Source: a virus | Virus record (IMG/VR): IMGVR_UViG_3300047443_000090 | Coordinates: 1 to 64,000 of that record | Strand: one strand, 5' to 3' | Length of the DNA stretch: 64,000 nt | Shown: positions 1-29,775 of the stretch, piece after piece | Position numbering within the stretch: the first letter of the stretch is position 1 | Layout of the letters: each line of letters begins with the position of its first letter | Made by a program: the position numbers and the translations under genes | The notes under the pieces: generated by a model | Told to the model about the DNA's origin: nothing | The model's database searches: none | Seen by the model: only the letters and a program-made list of their open reading frames with translations

Positions 1-291
1 GGCGCGCAGCTCCAGAGAATCCACGCCTCCAGCGTCTATCACGATGTCATCGAACTTACCGGCCAGCCGCCGCACCTCGTCGGCCAGCGTGGAGCCGTAC
101 ACCGACACGCAAGTGATGTGGGGTGTGTGCTTCTCGTTGGCTCTTGTGGCCGCCCACTGGGCCGCGCTCTGTTGCTTATCCGCGTTGACCAGCAGCACGT
201 CCCTGCCCTGTATGGCGCGCAGCACGGCCATGTTGACCGCCATCGTGGTTTTGCCGGTGCCGCCCTTTTCGCCGCCGAACAAGATAATCAT
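1..291 (-). CDS. parA: ParA-like partition ATPase (5' part only)
   Basis: The protein starts at 291 and runs off the left edge, so only the first 97 residues are visible. Residues 9-16 read KGGTGKTT, the deviant Walker A motif of the ParA/MinD/Soj family. They are followed by a DKQQSAAQWA stretch, typical of short ParA proteins that lack an N-terminal DNA-binding domain, and by VIDAGG in the Walker A' region. A strong Shine-Dalgarno AAGGGG precedes the ATG. ParA ATPases bind nucleoid DNA and move a ParB-bound centromere, so this protein probably segregates the element as a low-copy plasmid. A good promoter (321-349) and a pentameric array lie directly upstream. The partner may be the ParB-like protein at 1048-2001. 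Confidence 0.9.
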   Translation of the reverse strand, partial: MIILFGGEKGGTGKTTMAVNMAVLRAIQGRDVLLVNADKQQSAAQWAATRANEKHTPHITCVSVYGSTLADEVRRLAGKFDDIVIDAGGVDSLELRA

Positions 292-320: not shown

Positions 321-349
321 ATTATCAAATTGATTCCGCGCTTTGGCAA
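321..349 (-). promoter_or_regulatory. Predicted sigma-70 promoter of parA
   Basis: On the minus strand TTGCCA (344-349) and GATAAT (321-326) are separated by exactly 17 bp, and the parA ATG at 291 follows. This matches sigma-70 consensus at 4 of 6 and 5 of 6 positions. It suggests parA has its own transcription unit, separate from the recT-parB operon. Confidence 0.6.
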
Positions 350-383: not shown

Positions 384-829
384 GGAACCTAACCATCCCA
401 TACGATACGGCACGCAATAGTTTGGTATGCAACCATGTTATGTGGTTTGATTTCAATTGGTATGGTACGGCATCAAACGGTACGGGATGGTGTGAAATGG
501 TACGGTGTGGTGTGATTCGGTTTGCTACGGTGTGGTTCCTATGCTGCGGCGAAGCCCCGAAACACGGGGTTCCGGGCGCGCGTGCGCCGCATTTGGTGTG
601 GTTCGGTACGCTACCACTTGGCATGGTGCGGTGCGCAATGGTTGAGTATGGTGTGGTGTGAAACGGTGTGATTTGGTACTAGATGGTGTGGTTGCGTGCG
701 GCACGCGGCGCGGCGTGCTGCCATTAAGTGTGGTTGCGTGTGGTGTGGTGCGGTTCTATTCGGTACGATGCGCTTTGGTTGCATATCGCATCGTACCGTT
801 AGGCGTGGTGTGGTGTCACATGGCGCGGT
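384..829. repeat. Degenerate pentanucleotide array, GG every 5 bp
   Basis: This GT-rich stretch is built on a 5-bp period. Almost every GG on the plus strand falls on one register in each of three blocks: 384-534 (first G at positions 4 mod 5), 595-700 (0 mod 5) and 732-827 (2 mod 5). About forty GGs obey this. Typical units are TATGG, TACGG, TGTGG and TGCGG. A five-base period is incompatible with coding, and ORFs read across it look like translated repeat. It lies between a ParB-like gene and parA, so a centromere (parS-like) role is plausible. Formation of two-quartet G-quadruplexes or a recombination-stimulating GT tract are alternatives. Confidence 0.85.
555..588. other. Tandem hairpins splitting the pentamer array
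   Basis: Between the first two blocks lie two small GC hairpins: CCCCG/CGGGG around a five-base loop (555-569) and GGCGC/GCGCC (575-588). The pentamer register shifts by one base across them. They could be a transcription pause, a nuclease target or debris of an insertion. No T-run follows, so they are not classic terminators. Confidence 0.5.
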
Positions 830-1064
830 GCTTCCACTTGCATCCGGCGCACTTCGGATCGTTGCGGGTATGGATGCTGTACTGGCACTCGGCAGTCATC
901 ACATGGGGAACCTGCACGATGCGAGGGATGCGGGTCGTGTAGCCCTGCGCCCCTTCCGGGCCGCCAAGCGGTTGCTCAAGCCATCCATCTTGCGCAGGGT
1001 AGGTGCGTGCGGCCAGCGCTTCCCCGCGCTGGCCGTCGTAGCAGCCGTTACGCGGCGGCGTCAT
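816..1064 (-). CDS. Small cysteine-containing protein of unknown function
   Basis: 82 aa; its start overlaps the end of the ParB-like gene by 17 nt, so it is probably translationally coupled to it. The C-terminal third carries the cysteine pattern ECQ..., KCAGCKWKH, which could bind a metal ion. I recognise no family. The 3' end of the gene runs into the third block of the pentamer array, whose register continues inside the coding sequence. This means either the array has encroached on the gene or the gene end is not under strong selection. Its place beside parB-like and the array makes a partition or silencing accessory role possible, but this is only inference. Confidence 0.6.
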   Translation of the reverse strand: MTPPRNGCYDGQRGEALAARTYPAQDGWLEQPLGGPEGAQGYTTRIPRIVQVPHVMTAECQYSIHTRNDPKCAGCKWKHRAM

Positions 1065-2001
1065 TGGCTCCCTCGGTCGCCGGTGCCGCCGCCTTCTCGC
1101 GCAGCTTCAGCACGTCATCATGCGCCGCGCGCAGCTCGGCCAGCAGGGCGGCGGGCATTTCAACTATGACGGTCGCGCCATCCGGCATGATGTCCAGCTC
1201 GTGCGCTGTCATGGTCGATGGCAGCACGTTGAACAGCGTGCCGATGCTGTCTGTGAAGCGCGCCACCAGCTTACGCGGGATGGCGGCACCCTGCACGGTC
1301 TTTTTCGTCACCTTGCTTTTGCCGCTGGCCTTGGCCTTCTCCAGCGCCTCTTGGATCACCTTACCGGCGTCGCTGCCATGCTCGCGGATTATGCCCACGG
1401 CGACTGTTCCGGCAACTTCGCCAGCGCGGACGGATTCCCGTACATCGGGATTGGCGCGCGCCAGCATCAGGCAGTTTTCGATGTGCGTGACGGACTTGCC
1501 CATGCGCTTCGCAATGCGCGTCACGTCCCAGTTCAGGGCGATCAGCTCGGCGTATTTCTCGCCCTGCACCAGCGGCGTTATCCCGAGAGACTGGCCGCTC
1601 GACAGCATGTGCGCGATCTGTTCGTCAATGCCGCCCTTGAATTCAACAGCGGACATTTCAGGAATGTCTCGGCCACTTGAAAGCCCGGCGCGGTATTCCT
1701 CGATCAGCTCGCGCACCGCCCACATGCGGTGCTCGCCATCGACCATGAAAATAGTGGATTTCGTGGCCGTCCGCTCAACGGCCACGTCGATAGGTTTGAG
1801 CTTCACGCCGCCCCGGATCGACTCTTTAATGTTGTCGATATGCTCTCGGCTGACCGGGCGGTTAAAACCGGGGCGAATCTCGACCTTGAATGGATCGACC
1901 TTGAAGCTGGTTTCTTTCGAGACGCCTTCGATGCTCTTGTCCTCGGCGGCGGCCTTCAGGGACGCGAATTTCTGTTCTTCGGTAGCGGTCTTGTTCATCA
2001 T
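1048..2001 (-). CDS. ParB/KorB-like DNA-binding protein
   Basis: 317 aa. Residues about 30-120 resemble the ParB/Srx N-terminal fold (RPGFNRPV..., DGEHRMWAVRELIEEY, where the DGEHR segment matches the family's nucleotide-binding GxxR region). A helix-turn-helix follows (LGITPLVQGEKYAELI, then a recognition-helix-like KSVTHIENCLML), as in ParB and KorB. The C-terminal part (about 215-317) is divergent, helical and Ala-rich. ParB proteins bind centromere sites and activate ParA; many phage homologues instead act as transcription factors. It starts by ATGA overlap with rdgC upstream. Together with parA and the pentamer array it suggests a partition module, although parA is transcribed separately. 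Confidence 0.8.
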   Translation of the reverse strand: MMNKTATEEQKFASLKAAAEDKSIEGVSKETSFKVDPFKVEIRPGFNRPVSREHIDNIKESIRGGVKLKPIDVAVERTATKSTIFMVDGEHRMWAVRELIEEYRAGLSSGRDIPEMSAVEFKGGIDEQIAHMLSSGQSLGITPLVQGEKYAELIALNWDVTRIAKRMGKSVTHIENCLMLARANPDVRESVRAGEVAGTVAVGIIREHGSDAGKVIQEALEKAKASGKSKVTKKTVQGAAIPRKLVARFTDSIGTLFNVLPSTMTAHELDIMPDGATVIVEMPAALLAELRAAHDDVLKLREKAAAPATEGANDAAA

Positions 2002-3113
2002 GCGGCTTTCTGGTTGGTGCTGGAGGTCGGCGTGAGGCGGGCGAGGTTCCCGTTGGGGGACAATGTACTGACAGAGCTGTCCAATGTGATCGGCTTGCCG
2101 CTGACCGTCAGCGAAATGGTTGCGCCGTCCTGAGCGGCCATCTGGTGCAGCTTGCGCACCACGTCCTGCACGCCGTCAGCCGGGGCCGGTGCTGCGCTGG
2201 CGGTATCGGTGGTGCCATCGACAGCAGCGAAGCCGCCCAGTTCCTCAACCAGCTCGGCCATCAGCTTTGCCAGCTCGCCGGTAATCAGCATCGCGTTGTT
2301 ATCAAAGCGCTCGTCCTCGTTGCGTGGCGAGACATCGCTTTCGGTCATCACGTCGAGCAGCTTCACGGTTTTGATTGCCAGCCCTTCGGTCAGTACGAAC
2401 GAGATTTTGCTATCCCACGTCATCGCCAGTCGCACGCATTGCTTGCCTGCGGCGATGTGGCGCTTCATTTCGTCAGCTTCGAGTGTGTGGCGCTTGTAAG
2501 TGATGCTGGCCTTGCTTTCGCCGGTCGCGCGCAGGGTGGCGTCAGTGTCCAACGTGAAGCCTGCGGGTGCTTCATCGGTGTTGAGCCAGTCGGTCATCGC
2601 GGCGACTGGCGAGCGCTGCACGCGCAGGCTTTCCAGTGGCATACGGTCTACCGCCTTCAGCAACAACTTAACAACGTCGTCGGCCTTCGATGGGCTGGAG
2701 GCGTCTACTACCAGCCAGCCATTCTTGCGATCAATCCAGACCCATGTGTGCGCGTCTTTCGGGAATGCCTTTGCCAGCAGCTCATCGTAGACGCGCTCTT
2801 TCAGCTCCTTGCGGGCATTTTTGCCCGGCGCGAAGCCTTGCTCTTTCTCCATGACTACGGCGCGCTTTGTGACTTCGGCATTGATGACAGCGCCGGGCAG
2901 CACTTTGGTTTGAGTCTGGAGGCGCAGGATCATTTGATCGTTGACCACATGGACAAGCGGCCCATTTTCGCGCGGTGGCACCCAGCCTTGGCGCATCGCT
3001 TCATGGCTGGTGCATGGGGTGAATGCTTGAGCGGTGATGGCTTCGATAAGCGCCTCGGTGGTCAGCGAGTAGTTGCACGGCAGGCGGTAGATTTGGAGGT
3101 TGCGGAGGTTCAT
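1998..3113 (-). CDS. rdgC: RdgC, recombination-associated protein
   Basis: 371 aa. The start (NLQIYRLPCNYSLTTEAL, then AFTPCTSHEAMRQGWVPP) closely follows the RdgC family, as do KVLPGAVINAEV, TWVWIDRKNGWLVVDASS and the C-terminal MLITGELAKLMAELVEELGG. RdgC forms a ring-shaped dimer around DNA and restrains RecA-mediated strand exchange. It is longer than the about 303-aa E. coli protein because of a tail (residues about 300-371) rich in Ala, Thr and Ser. In this operon it sits with RecT and an exonuclease, so the phage carries both a recombination engine and a modulator. Confidence 0.93.
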   Translation of the reverse strand: MNLRNLQIYRLPCNYSLTTEALIEAITAQAFTPCTSHEAMRQGWVPPRENGPLVHVVNDQMILRLQTQTKVLPGAVINAEVTKRAVVMEKEQGFAPGKNARKELKERVYDELLAKAFPKDAHTWVWIDRKNGWLVVDASSPSKADDVVKLLLKAVDRMPLESLRVQRSPVAAMTDWLNTDEAPAGFTLDTDATLRATGESKASITYKRHTLEADEMKRHIAAGKQCVRLAMTWDSKISFVLTEGLAIKTVKLLDVMTESDVSPRNEDERFDNNAMLITGELAKLMAELVEELGGFAAVDGTTDTASAAPAPADGVQDVVRKLHQMAAQDGATISLTVSGKPITLDSSVSTLSPNGNLARLTPTSSTNQKAA

Positions 3114-29269: not shown

Positions 29270-29775
29270 GGTGCCAGGATCGGGTCGGATGGGTCCACAC
29301 CGTTCGCCTCGGCCATCGCACGGTAGGATTCATGCAGCTCGTGGCCGCCGTCGCTGATGGCGTCGAAGTCCATTTCGCCCTTGATGTACTTCATGCGGAC
29401 GGTCATGTTGTGATCCGCGCCGCGCATCAGGAACCCGGCACAGGTGGCCGGTTTCTTGGTGCCCGATTCGTGGCATGAAAACATTTTATCCGCCCGGTCG
29501 TAGGCGGTGCCCGCAGTCTCGCGGAATGCCCCTGCCGGGAAGGTGCCGGTCTGGTCTACGCGCCACGGACAGCCGCCGCACGGCTCGCGCCGATACTGGC
29601 CGCCGCCGCCAATAACCGATACAACCCGATGGTTCTCGTCTACCGGGCGAACGTCGGTGATGCGGGTCGGCTTACGCGCGGGCCGCATGATTTCAGGCGG
29701 AACCGTCATGCACCCTTTGATCGCCTCGATAGCGGCCTGCTGGTAGTCGCGCAGCTTCGGCAGGTTCTTAGCCAT
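29260..29775 (-). CDS. DUF6283-family cysteine-rich protein
   Basis: 171 aa. PCGGCPWRVDQTGTFPAGAF...KMFSCHESGTKKPATCAGFLMRG matches the DUF6283 pattern: a CxxCPW, a later FxCH and a final CAGF. These Cys/His residues probably form a metal or iron-sulfur site. The N-terminal 60 residues have the basic stretch RPARKPTRITDVRPV. Common in phage accessory blocks; function unknown. Confidence 0.8.
   Translation of the reverse strand: MAKNLPKLRDYQQAAIEAIKGCMTVPPEIMRPARKPTRITDVRPVDENHRVVSVIGGGGQYRREPCGGCPWRVDQTGTFPAGAFRETAGTAYDRADKMFSCHESGTKKPATCAGFLMRGADHNMTVRMKYIKGEMDFDAISDGGHELHESYRAMAEANGVDPSDPILAPCR

Follow-up and report, generated by a model that had tools for sequence, protein, structure and literature searches.

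The window analyzed here is the 64,000-nucleotide stretch from positions 1 to 64,000 of virus record IMGVR_UViG_3300047443_000090, an 87,259-bp virus contig whose 127-bp terminal direct repeat indicates that the record is circular. Near the left end of the window a repeat array sits between two minus-strand genes: parA, of which the 5′ part occupies 1..291 and the remainder runs across the end of the record, and a gene at 1048..2001 for a 317-aa ParB-like (HTH) protein (PF17762; phrog_1033, E 2e-54). The parA product is 213 aa long, carries an N-terminal Walker box (KGGTGKTT), belongs to Pfam CbiA/AAA_31, and finds its best solved relative in ParF of TP228 (4dzz, E 2e-11); judged by these matches it is a small ParF-like ATPase. 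Between the array and parA lies a putative parA promoter, TTGCCA-17-GATAAT (321..349, minus strand, 10/12 consensus matches), which is the only strong promoter match directed at parA; in L005, a related locus, TTGCGT-17-GATAAT can be seen by eye at the equivalent place, a match too weak for the promoter search to list. Because these putative promoters lie between array and parA in the window, and similarly in L005, the array would be upstream of the parA transcript. The gene adjoining the ParB-like gene on its other side encodes a phage RdgC (PF04381, E 5e-102; window 1998-3113) that is kept in L003, L005, and L097, and a gene near the array looks RecT-like by eye.

After parA, and outside the window, a minus-strand gene at record 86192-86791 (L004:16193-16792) encodes a protein of 199 aa, and this in turn is followed by the gene for a TrfA-family initiator (PF07042, E 4e-30). 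Seven iterons of about 22 bp (TTCGTGTTTTGAGCTGC...) at L004:15885-16077 (record 85884-86076) overlap the start of the initiator ORF, a further inverted copy lies at L004:16173-16194, and together these plausibly represent the oriV of the phage-plasmid. The presence of a TrfA-family protein in the same genome might invite the idea that the array near parA is itself a set of replication iterons for this initiator; the ordinary 22-bp iterons are however found at the TrfA gene itself, the array lacks the 17-22-bp direct iterons of a TrfA origin, it is with parA that 5-bp arrays are repeatedly associated, and the array in L005 has no Rep gene beside it. Replication of the plasmid is accounted for by the TrfA-family initiator with its own iterons, and we give almost no credence to a replication role for the array.

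The initial annotation had described GG dinucleotides locked to a 5-bp register next to parA, and this description is borne out. Over positions 384-830 the GGs keep 5-bp spacing in three blocks, with phases modulo 5 of 4 (384-534), 0 (595-700), and 2 (707-827). Measured against 2000 dinucleotide shuffles, GG autocorrelation summed over multiples of 5 (lag-5 to lag-40) is 153, compared with 41.4 +/- 6.0 in the shuffled sequences and a shuffle maximum of 76, and peaks appear at lags 5, 10, 15, 20, and so on, each with z of 5 to 8. Off-register GGs are confined to one GGG (484-486) and a cluster in a GC-rich spacer at about 546-590. A 7-bp period has a z of 0.3 in the same array, and 8 bp is not among its best periods. 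When the genome was scanned in 120-bp windows, the 20 most strongly 5-bp-periodic ones all fell within 321-860, and none lay in the remainder of the window or in L004; in L175 (63.9-70.1 kb), scanned with the Y-S-R rule described below only, the maximum was 7/12 slots. The circular phage-plasmid genome of 87 kb contains the array a single time.

GG is nonetheless a partial signature, present in just 40/71 slots when the array is read as 71 consecutive 5-bp slots. The better rule is a Y-S-R slot (consensus A-Y-S-R-T): Y precedes the centre in 64/71 slots, the centre is G/C in 65/71, and R follows in 65/71, with slot quality about equal on the two alternating faces of the helix. The earlier suggestion that spacing rather than sequence is selected must accordingly be modified, since sequence too is under selection in the form of one Y-S-R per slot. 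Block 1 (384..536, phase 4) contains 27 slots counted from position 400, all of which have Y before the centre; the GC-rich spacer that follows (546..590) interrupts the register and includes a hairpin, CCCCG-aaaca-CGGGG, at 555-569; block 2 (592..702, phase 0) contains 23 slots and is separated from block 3 (725..830, phase 2, 21 slots) by a GC-rich imperfect hairpin, GGCACGC...GCGTGCTGCC, visible in the sequence at 700..722. Within block 3 an inverted repeat (761..798; 17-nt arms, 88%, 4-nt gap) presents in-register units in both orientations. The sole other spot in the window with 9/12 in-register Y-S-R slots, at 29642-29706, has no notable 5-bp autocorrelation peak and is probably a chance occurrence in coding sequence.

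We then folded each 5-bp array modulo 5 and sought an axis of complementarity, pooling 19 arrays from the window and related loci. A single axis emerged, centred on a base pair that in most cases is C/G, and the pooled consensus is A-Y-S-R-T; the pseudo-dyad has a mean r of 0.766 against a column-permutation null of 0.533 +/- 0.041, and is not significant in the window array taken alone (p 0.21). A two-fold symmetric ribbon-helix-helix (RHH) dimer would be well matched to a unit of this form.

The plasmid, genome, and viral loci used for comparison came from ParA searches. A 5-bp period with z >= 4 was found upstream of parA in 22/114 loci with related ParA, as against 0/114 inside parA, 0/106 downstream of the centromere-binding protein (CBP) gene, and 2/105 far upstream; an independent run, for which the shuffles differed, yielded 25 arrays including that of the window. 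Taken together, 22-24 of the 114 loci carry a 5-bp register immediately before parA, and these counts are to be read in the knowledge that the loci are not independent and that z differs from run to run. After removal of redundancy, eight loci reach a ParA identity of 54% or more, six of them with a period of 5 bp and two with 8 bp, and more widely 67/110 non-redundant ParA-related loci have no strong tandem period upstream. Other loci have, likewise upstream of parA, a strong tandem period of 8 bp (L015, L104), 9 bp (L115, L146, L159, L170), or 11 bp (L018, L031, L110, L120, L136, and phage D6 L014). On the ParA tree the clade of the window, which includes L005, L096, and L097, is uniformly 5 bp, and several changes of period are seen across the tree as a whole; within a single ParA family, then, the pitch of the centromere seems to switch. 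The three relatives in this clade retain both parA and parB, and all three have kept the array; neither of the two outcomes that the initial annotation had named as refuting its proposal, a lack of 5-bp autocorrelation above shuffles or loss of the array in such relatives, was observed. In L005, whose ParA is 73% identical, the gene order RdgC-ParB-array-ParA-RHH is the same as in the window, and the array holds a clear 5-bp register in different letters (RTSAY, for example ATCAC).

Perfect 5-mers proved to be of no diagnostic use: blind scans of viral contigs found a related ParA at 0/19 loci with ATSAT x4 and at 0/80 loci with YGGTN x5. One of these hits, an extended ATGAT/ATCAT-like pentamer tract at L181:1190-1320 in a 55.8-kb phage contig, has no parA in the 2.9 kb of sequence covered. 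Since perfect 5-mer tracts exist in viral contigs without parA, the register by itself is no proof of a centromere.

Comparison of close relatives reveals which features of the arrays persist. Between L101 and L103 the upstream flanks cannot be aligned, while the 115-bp array can be aligned ungapped, with 12 substitutions; all changes at Y, S, or R positions retain or restore the class. In L096 and L097 the flanks are conserved and the blocks reshuffled, with GG-type and CC-type blocks side by side in one array. As far as these alignments indicate, register and slot class persist, and strand and block order vary, a pattern which fits a protein that binds duplex DNA and disfavours G-quadruplex, single-strand loading, or RNA-level roles. 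The initial annotation had offered G-quadruplex formation or RecA/RecT loading as alternatives, and a strand-specific GT-rich element of this kind, or one bound at the RNA level, could indeed draw on the GT-rich plus strand and on the recombination genes nearby. It is contradicted by the L005 array, which is not GG-based, by the mixed GG and CC blocks of L096 and L097, by the location of the array upstream of the parA promoter, and by the fact that no (GG N1-7)3 GG motif occurs in the window array; we regard a strand-specific role as scarcely credible. The same comparisons bear on whether the array might be a functionless, decaying pentanucleotide microsatellite produced by TGTGG-like slippage. 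The 5-bp units, the transition-type variants, and the block reshuffling of L096 and L097 are all what slippage might leave behind, but the register is held across three blocks whose units differ, substitutions preserve the Y, S, and R classes, distant ParA relatives have the same slot consensus, and arrays lie at the same site upstream of parA and not in the control regions, so that decay without function seems very improbable.

As to what might bind the array, the initial annotation had named the 317-aa protein and an 82-aa protein; the product of the gene at record 86192-86791 is a likelier candidate than either. This 199-aa protein, which has no Pfam, PHROG, or NCBIfam match, has an Ala/Pro-rich linker and a strand-helix-helix C-terminal domain homologous to small proteins encoded downstream of parA in relatives. 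A profile built from 24 of these domains has matches to RHH proteins of the CopG family (6iya, E 6e-6) and to Arc (E 0.007), and its consensus 'pfnlRmpe' aligns to 'QFNLRWPRE' of Arc, in which the FNLRWP strand is the DNA-contacting ribbon. One downstream protein, that of L023, clears the Pfam RHH_1 cut-off, and AlphaFold2 models of the proteins of two relatives have, with high confidence, an extended segment followed by two C-terminal helices. A Foldseek structure search with the CBP models gave no significant match; the RHH domains of SegB, ParD, and Reg576 ranked near the top, but with E > 1. On the strength of these family resemblances, the likely reader of the array is the RHH-like protein encoded after parA. 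Its Ala/Pro-rich linker makes it, at 199 aa, longer than type Ib CBPs, for which 46-131 aa are quoted, and in many array-bearing relatives the corresponding protein has about 98-120 aa. An attempt to match the β-strand residue of the CBP (N-x-R, Q-x-R, S-x-R, V-x-R) to the sequence of the unit gave, by eye, no clean correspondence.

The alternative is that the array is the binding site of the 317-aa HTH protein in a type Ia-like system. The gene is adjacent to the array, is ParB-like by both phrog_1033 and PF17762 (the corresponding phage family numbers 296 phage records, and one initial genome scan with the 317-aa ParB as query returned no match), and is also present in the array-bearing L005, L096, and L097. 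It is however beside arrays only in this lineage, none of its relatives being found within the 2.5-kb flanks of the arrays in L098, L101, L103, L106, and L107; moreover, ParB proteins of that fold bind long inverted repeats (PMC5016525), and the small ParA and 5-bp units differ from the large ParA and long inverted-repeat sites of the type Ia ParB/parS arrangement. The sister phage L003 (L003:7110-9343) is instructive in this regard: its ParB and RdgC are 69% and 65% identical to those of the window, yet it has no Y-S-R array and a different ATPase with Walker box GNVGKST. L003 has exchanged its partition cassette for a StbB-like ATPase, a name that is our reading of Walker box and gene order, and still encodes an RHH-like protein 35% identical to that of the window. 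(A 5-bp periodicity in one stretch of L003, z 5.4, was discounted; in-register Y-S-R reached only 6/12, with a shuffle maximum of 7.) Because it is missing beside many arrays and present in L003 without one, the 317-aa protein is probably not the binder of the array, and we consider a type Ia-like system quite unlikely here.

Several features place the locus among type Ib partition systems, whose centromeres precede the operon and serve as binding sites for RHH proteins (PMC5016525): i) the ParA, at 213 aa, falls within the 192-308 aa range, has a deviant Walker box of the form KGGxxK[S/T], and lacks an N-terminal DNA-binding domain; ii) a gene for an RHH-like protein, identified by the family profile (E 6e-6) and by AF2 topology that fits, directly follows parA; and iii) the par operon is preceded by a repeat array, as it is in relatives. 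We consider it highly probable that a type Ib ParA system, which would maintain the 87-kb phage as a lysogenic plasmid, has its centromere (parS/parC) in this array, coated by RHH dimers. The proposal that a centromere lies next to parA is thus well supported by position, operon layout, conservation in relatives, and the RHH-like partner gene; the further suggestion that it represents a new centromere type is better replaced by that of a type Ib centromere in a 5-bp variant. It could still be argued that the array is solely the operator of the parA operon, with the RHH-like protein controlling transcription and the centromere located elsewhere, inasmuch as the array is directly upstream of the parA promoter and type Ib CBPs act as repressors (PMC5016525). 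About 70 slots over 450 bp nevertheless far exceed what an operator needs, scans of the rest of the genome turned up no second 5-bp array, and known type Ib centromeres also serve as operators; we think an operator without centromere function unlikely.

Known systems share much of this arrangement. The delta/omega system of Streptococcus pSM19035 (type Ib) likewise has a small ParA, an RHH CBP, and spacer-free short units in direct and inverted orientation upstream of par, and the ATCAC core of its heptad fits A-Y-S-R-Y, a resemblance rather than a test. Its parS comprises 7-10 contiguous 7-bp WATCACW repeats, each bound by one dimer, with at least four contiguous repeats needed for ParA activation and several sites per plasmid (PMC9499535), whereas here the period is 5 bp, not that of the omega heptad, and about 70 units are gathered at one site. 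In Myxococcus pMF1 parCAB, also type Ib, the iteron motif AGATGTCT is itself an imperfect complement repeat, but the motif has 8 bp, the sites are dispersed, and there is an additional ParC protein (PMC3235114). Sulfolobus SegAB resembles the present system in combining a ParA-type ATPase with an RHH CBP, and was the top-ranked (not significant) Foldseek match of a relative's CBP; it differs in being an archaeal chromosomal system. TP228 parFGH (type Ib) provides in ParF the best solved match to the ParA; its ParG, to which the CBP here has no detectable sequence match, is an RHH protein whose N-terminus is flexible, and its array is upstream of the operon. The pitch of TP228 parH is about 8 bp. 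Its degenerate tetramer boxes and AT-rich spacers (PMC7308502) differ from the abutting pentamers of the window array, which has neither and a period of 5.

We infer that RHH-like dimers would bind the 5-bp slots, whose pseudo-dyad runs through the central C:G pair, and cover some 450 bp immediately before the parA promoter; DNA coated in this way would stimulate the ATPase of ParA on the nucleoid, two plasmid copies would thereby be moved apart, and the same binding would probably repress the parA operon. A step of 5 bp (about 171 degrees) would place adjacent slots on opposite sides of the helix, and since this is half a helical turn, the coat could take the form of a zig-zag on two sides or of two interleaved 10-bp rails. 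Three long blocks would fit a need, like that of pSM19035, for at least four contiguous repeats. The filling of every 5-bp slot by an RHH dimer might be sterically hindered, as the omega dimer takes 7 bp; to our knowledge, packing at 5 bp would be closer than in any known RHH-DNA array. With somewhat less than even confidence, we put forward tentatively that some type Ib centromeres form a class of their own: RHH dimers would bind them every 5 bp on alternating faces and enclose the DNA from two sides, and within one ParA family a switch of the step among 5, 8, 9, and 11 bp would go along with a change of partner protein.

RHH centromeres in the open-access papers that our search covered have units of at least 7 bp, and this search found no 5-bp or pentamer partition repeat. 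Standard repeat finders may overlook such centromeres, the units being too degenerate, and in-register Y-S-R upstream of parA provides a rule for finding them. A half-turn register maintained over about 70 degenerate slots, and recurring in many phages and plasmids, raises the structural question of how RHH dimers would pack at 5-bp steps; and a family in which both the pitch and the unit of the centromere vary would make the co-evolution of DNA-binding protein and array, as well as plasmid incompatibility, open to test.
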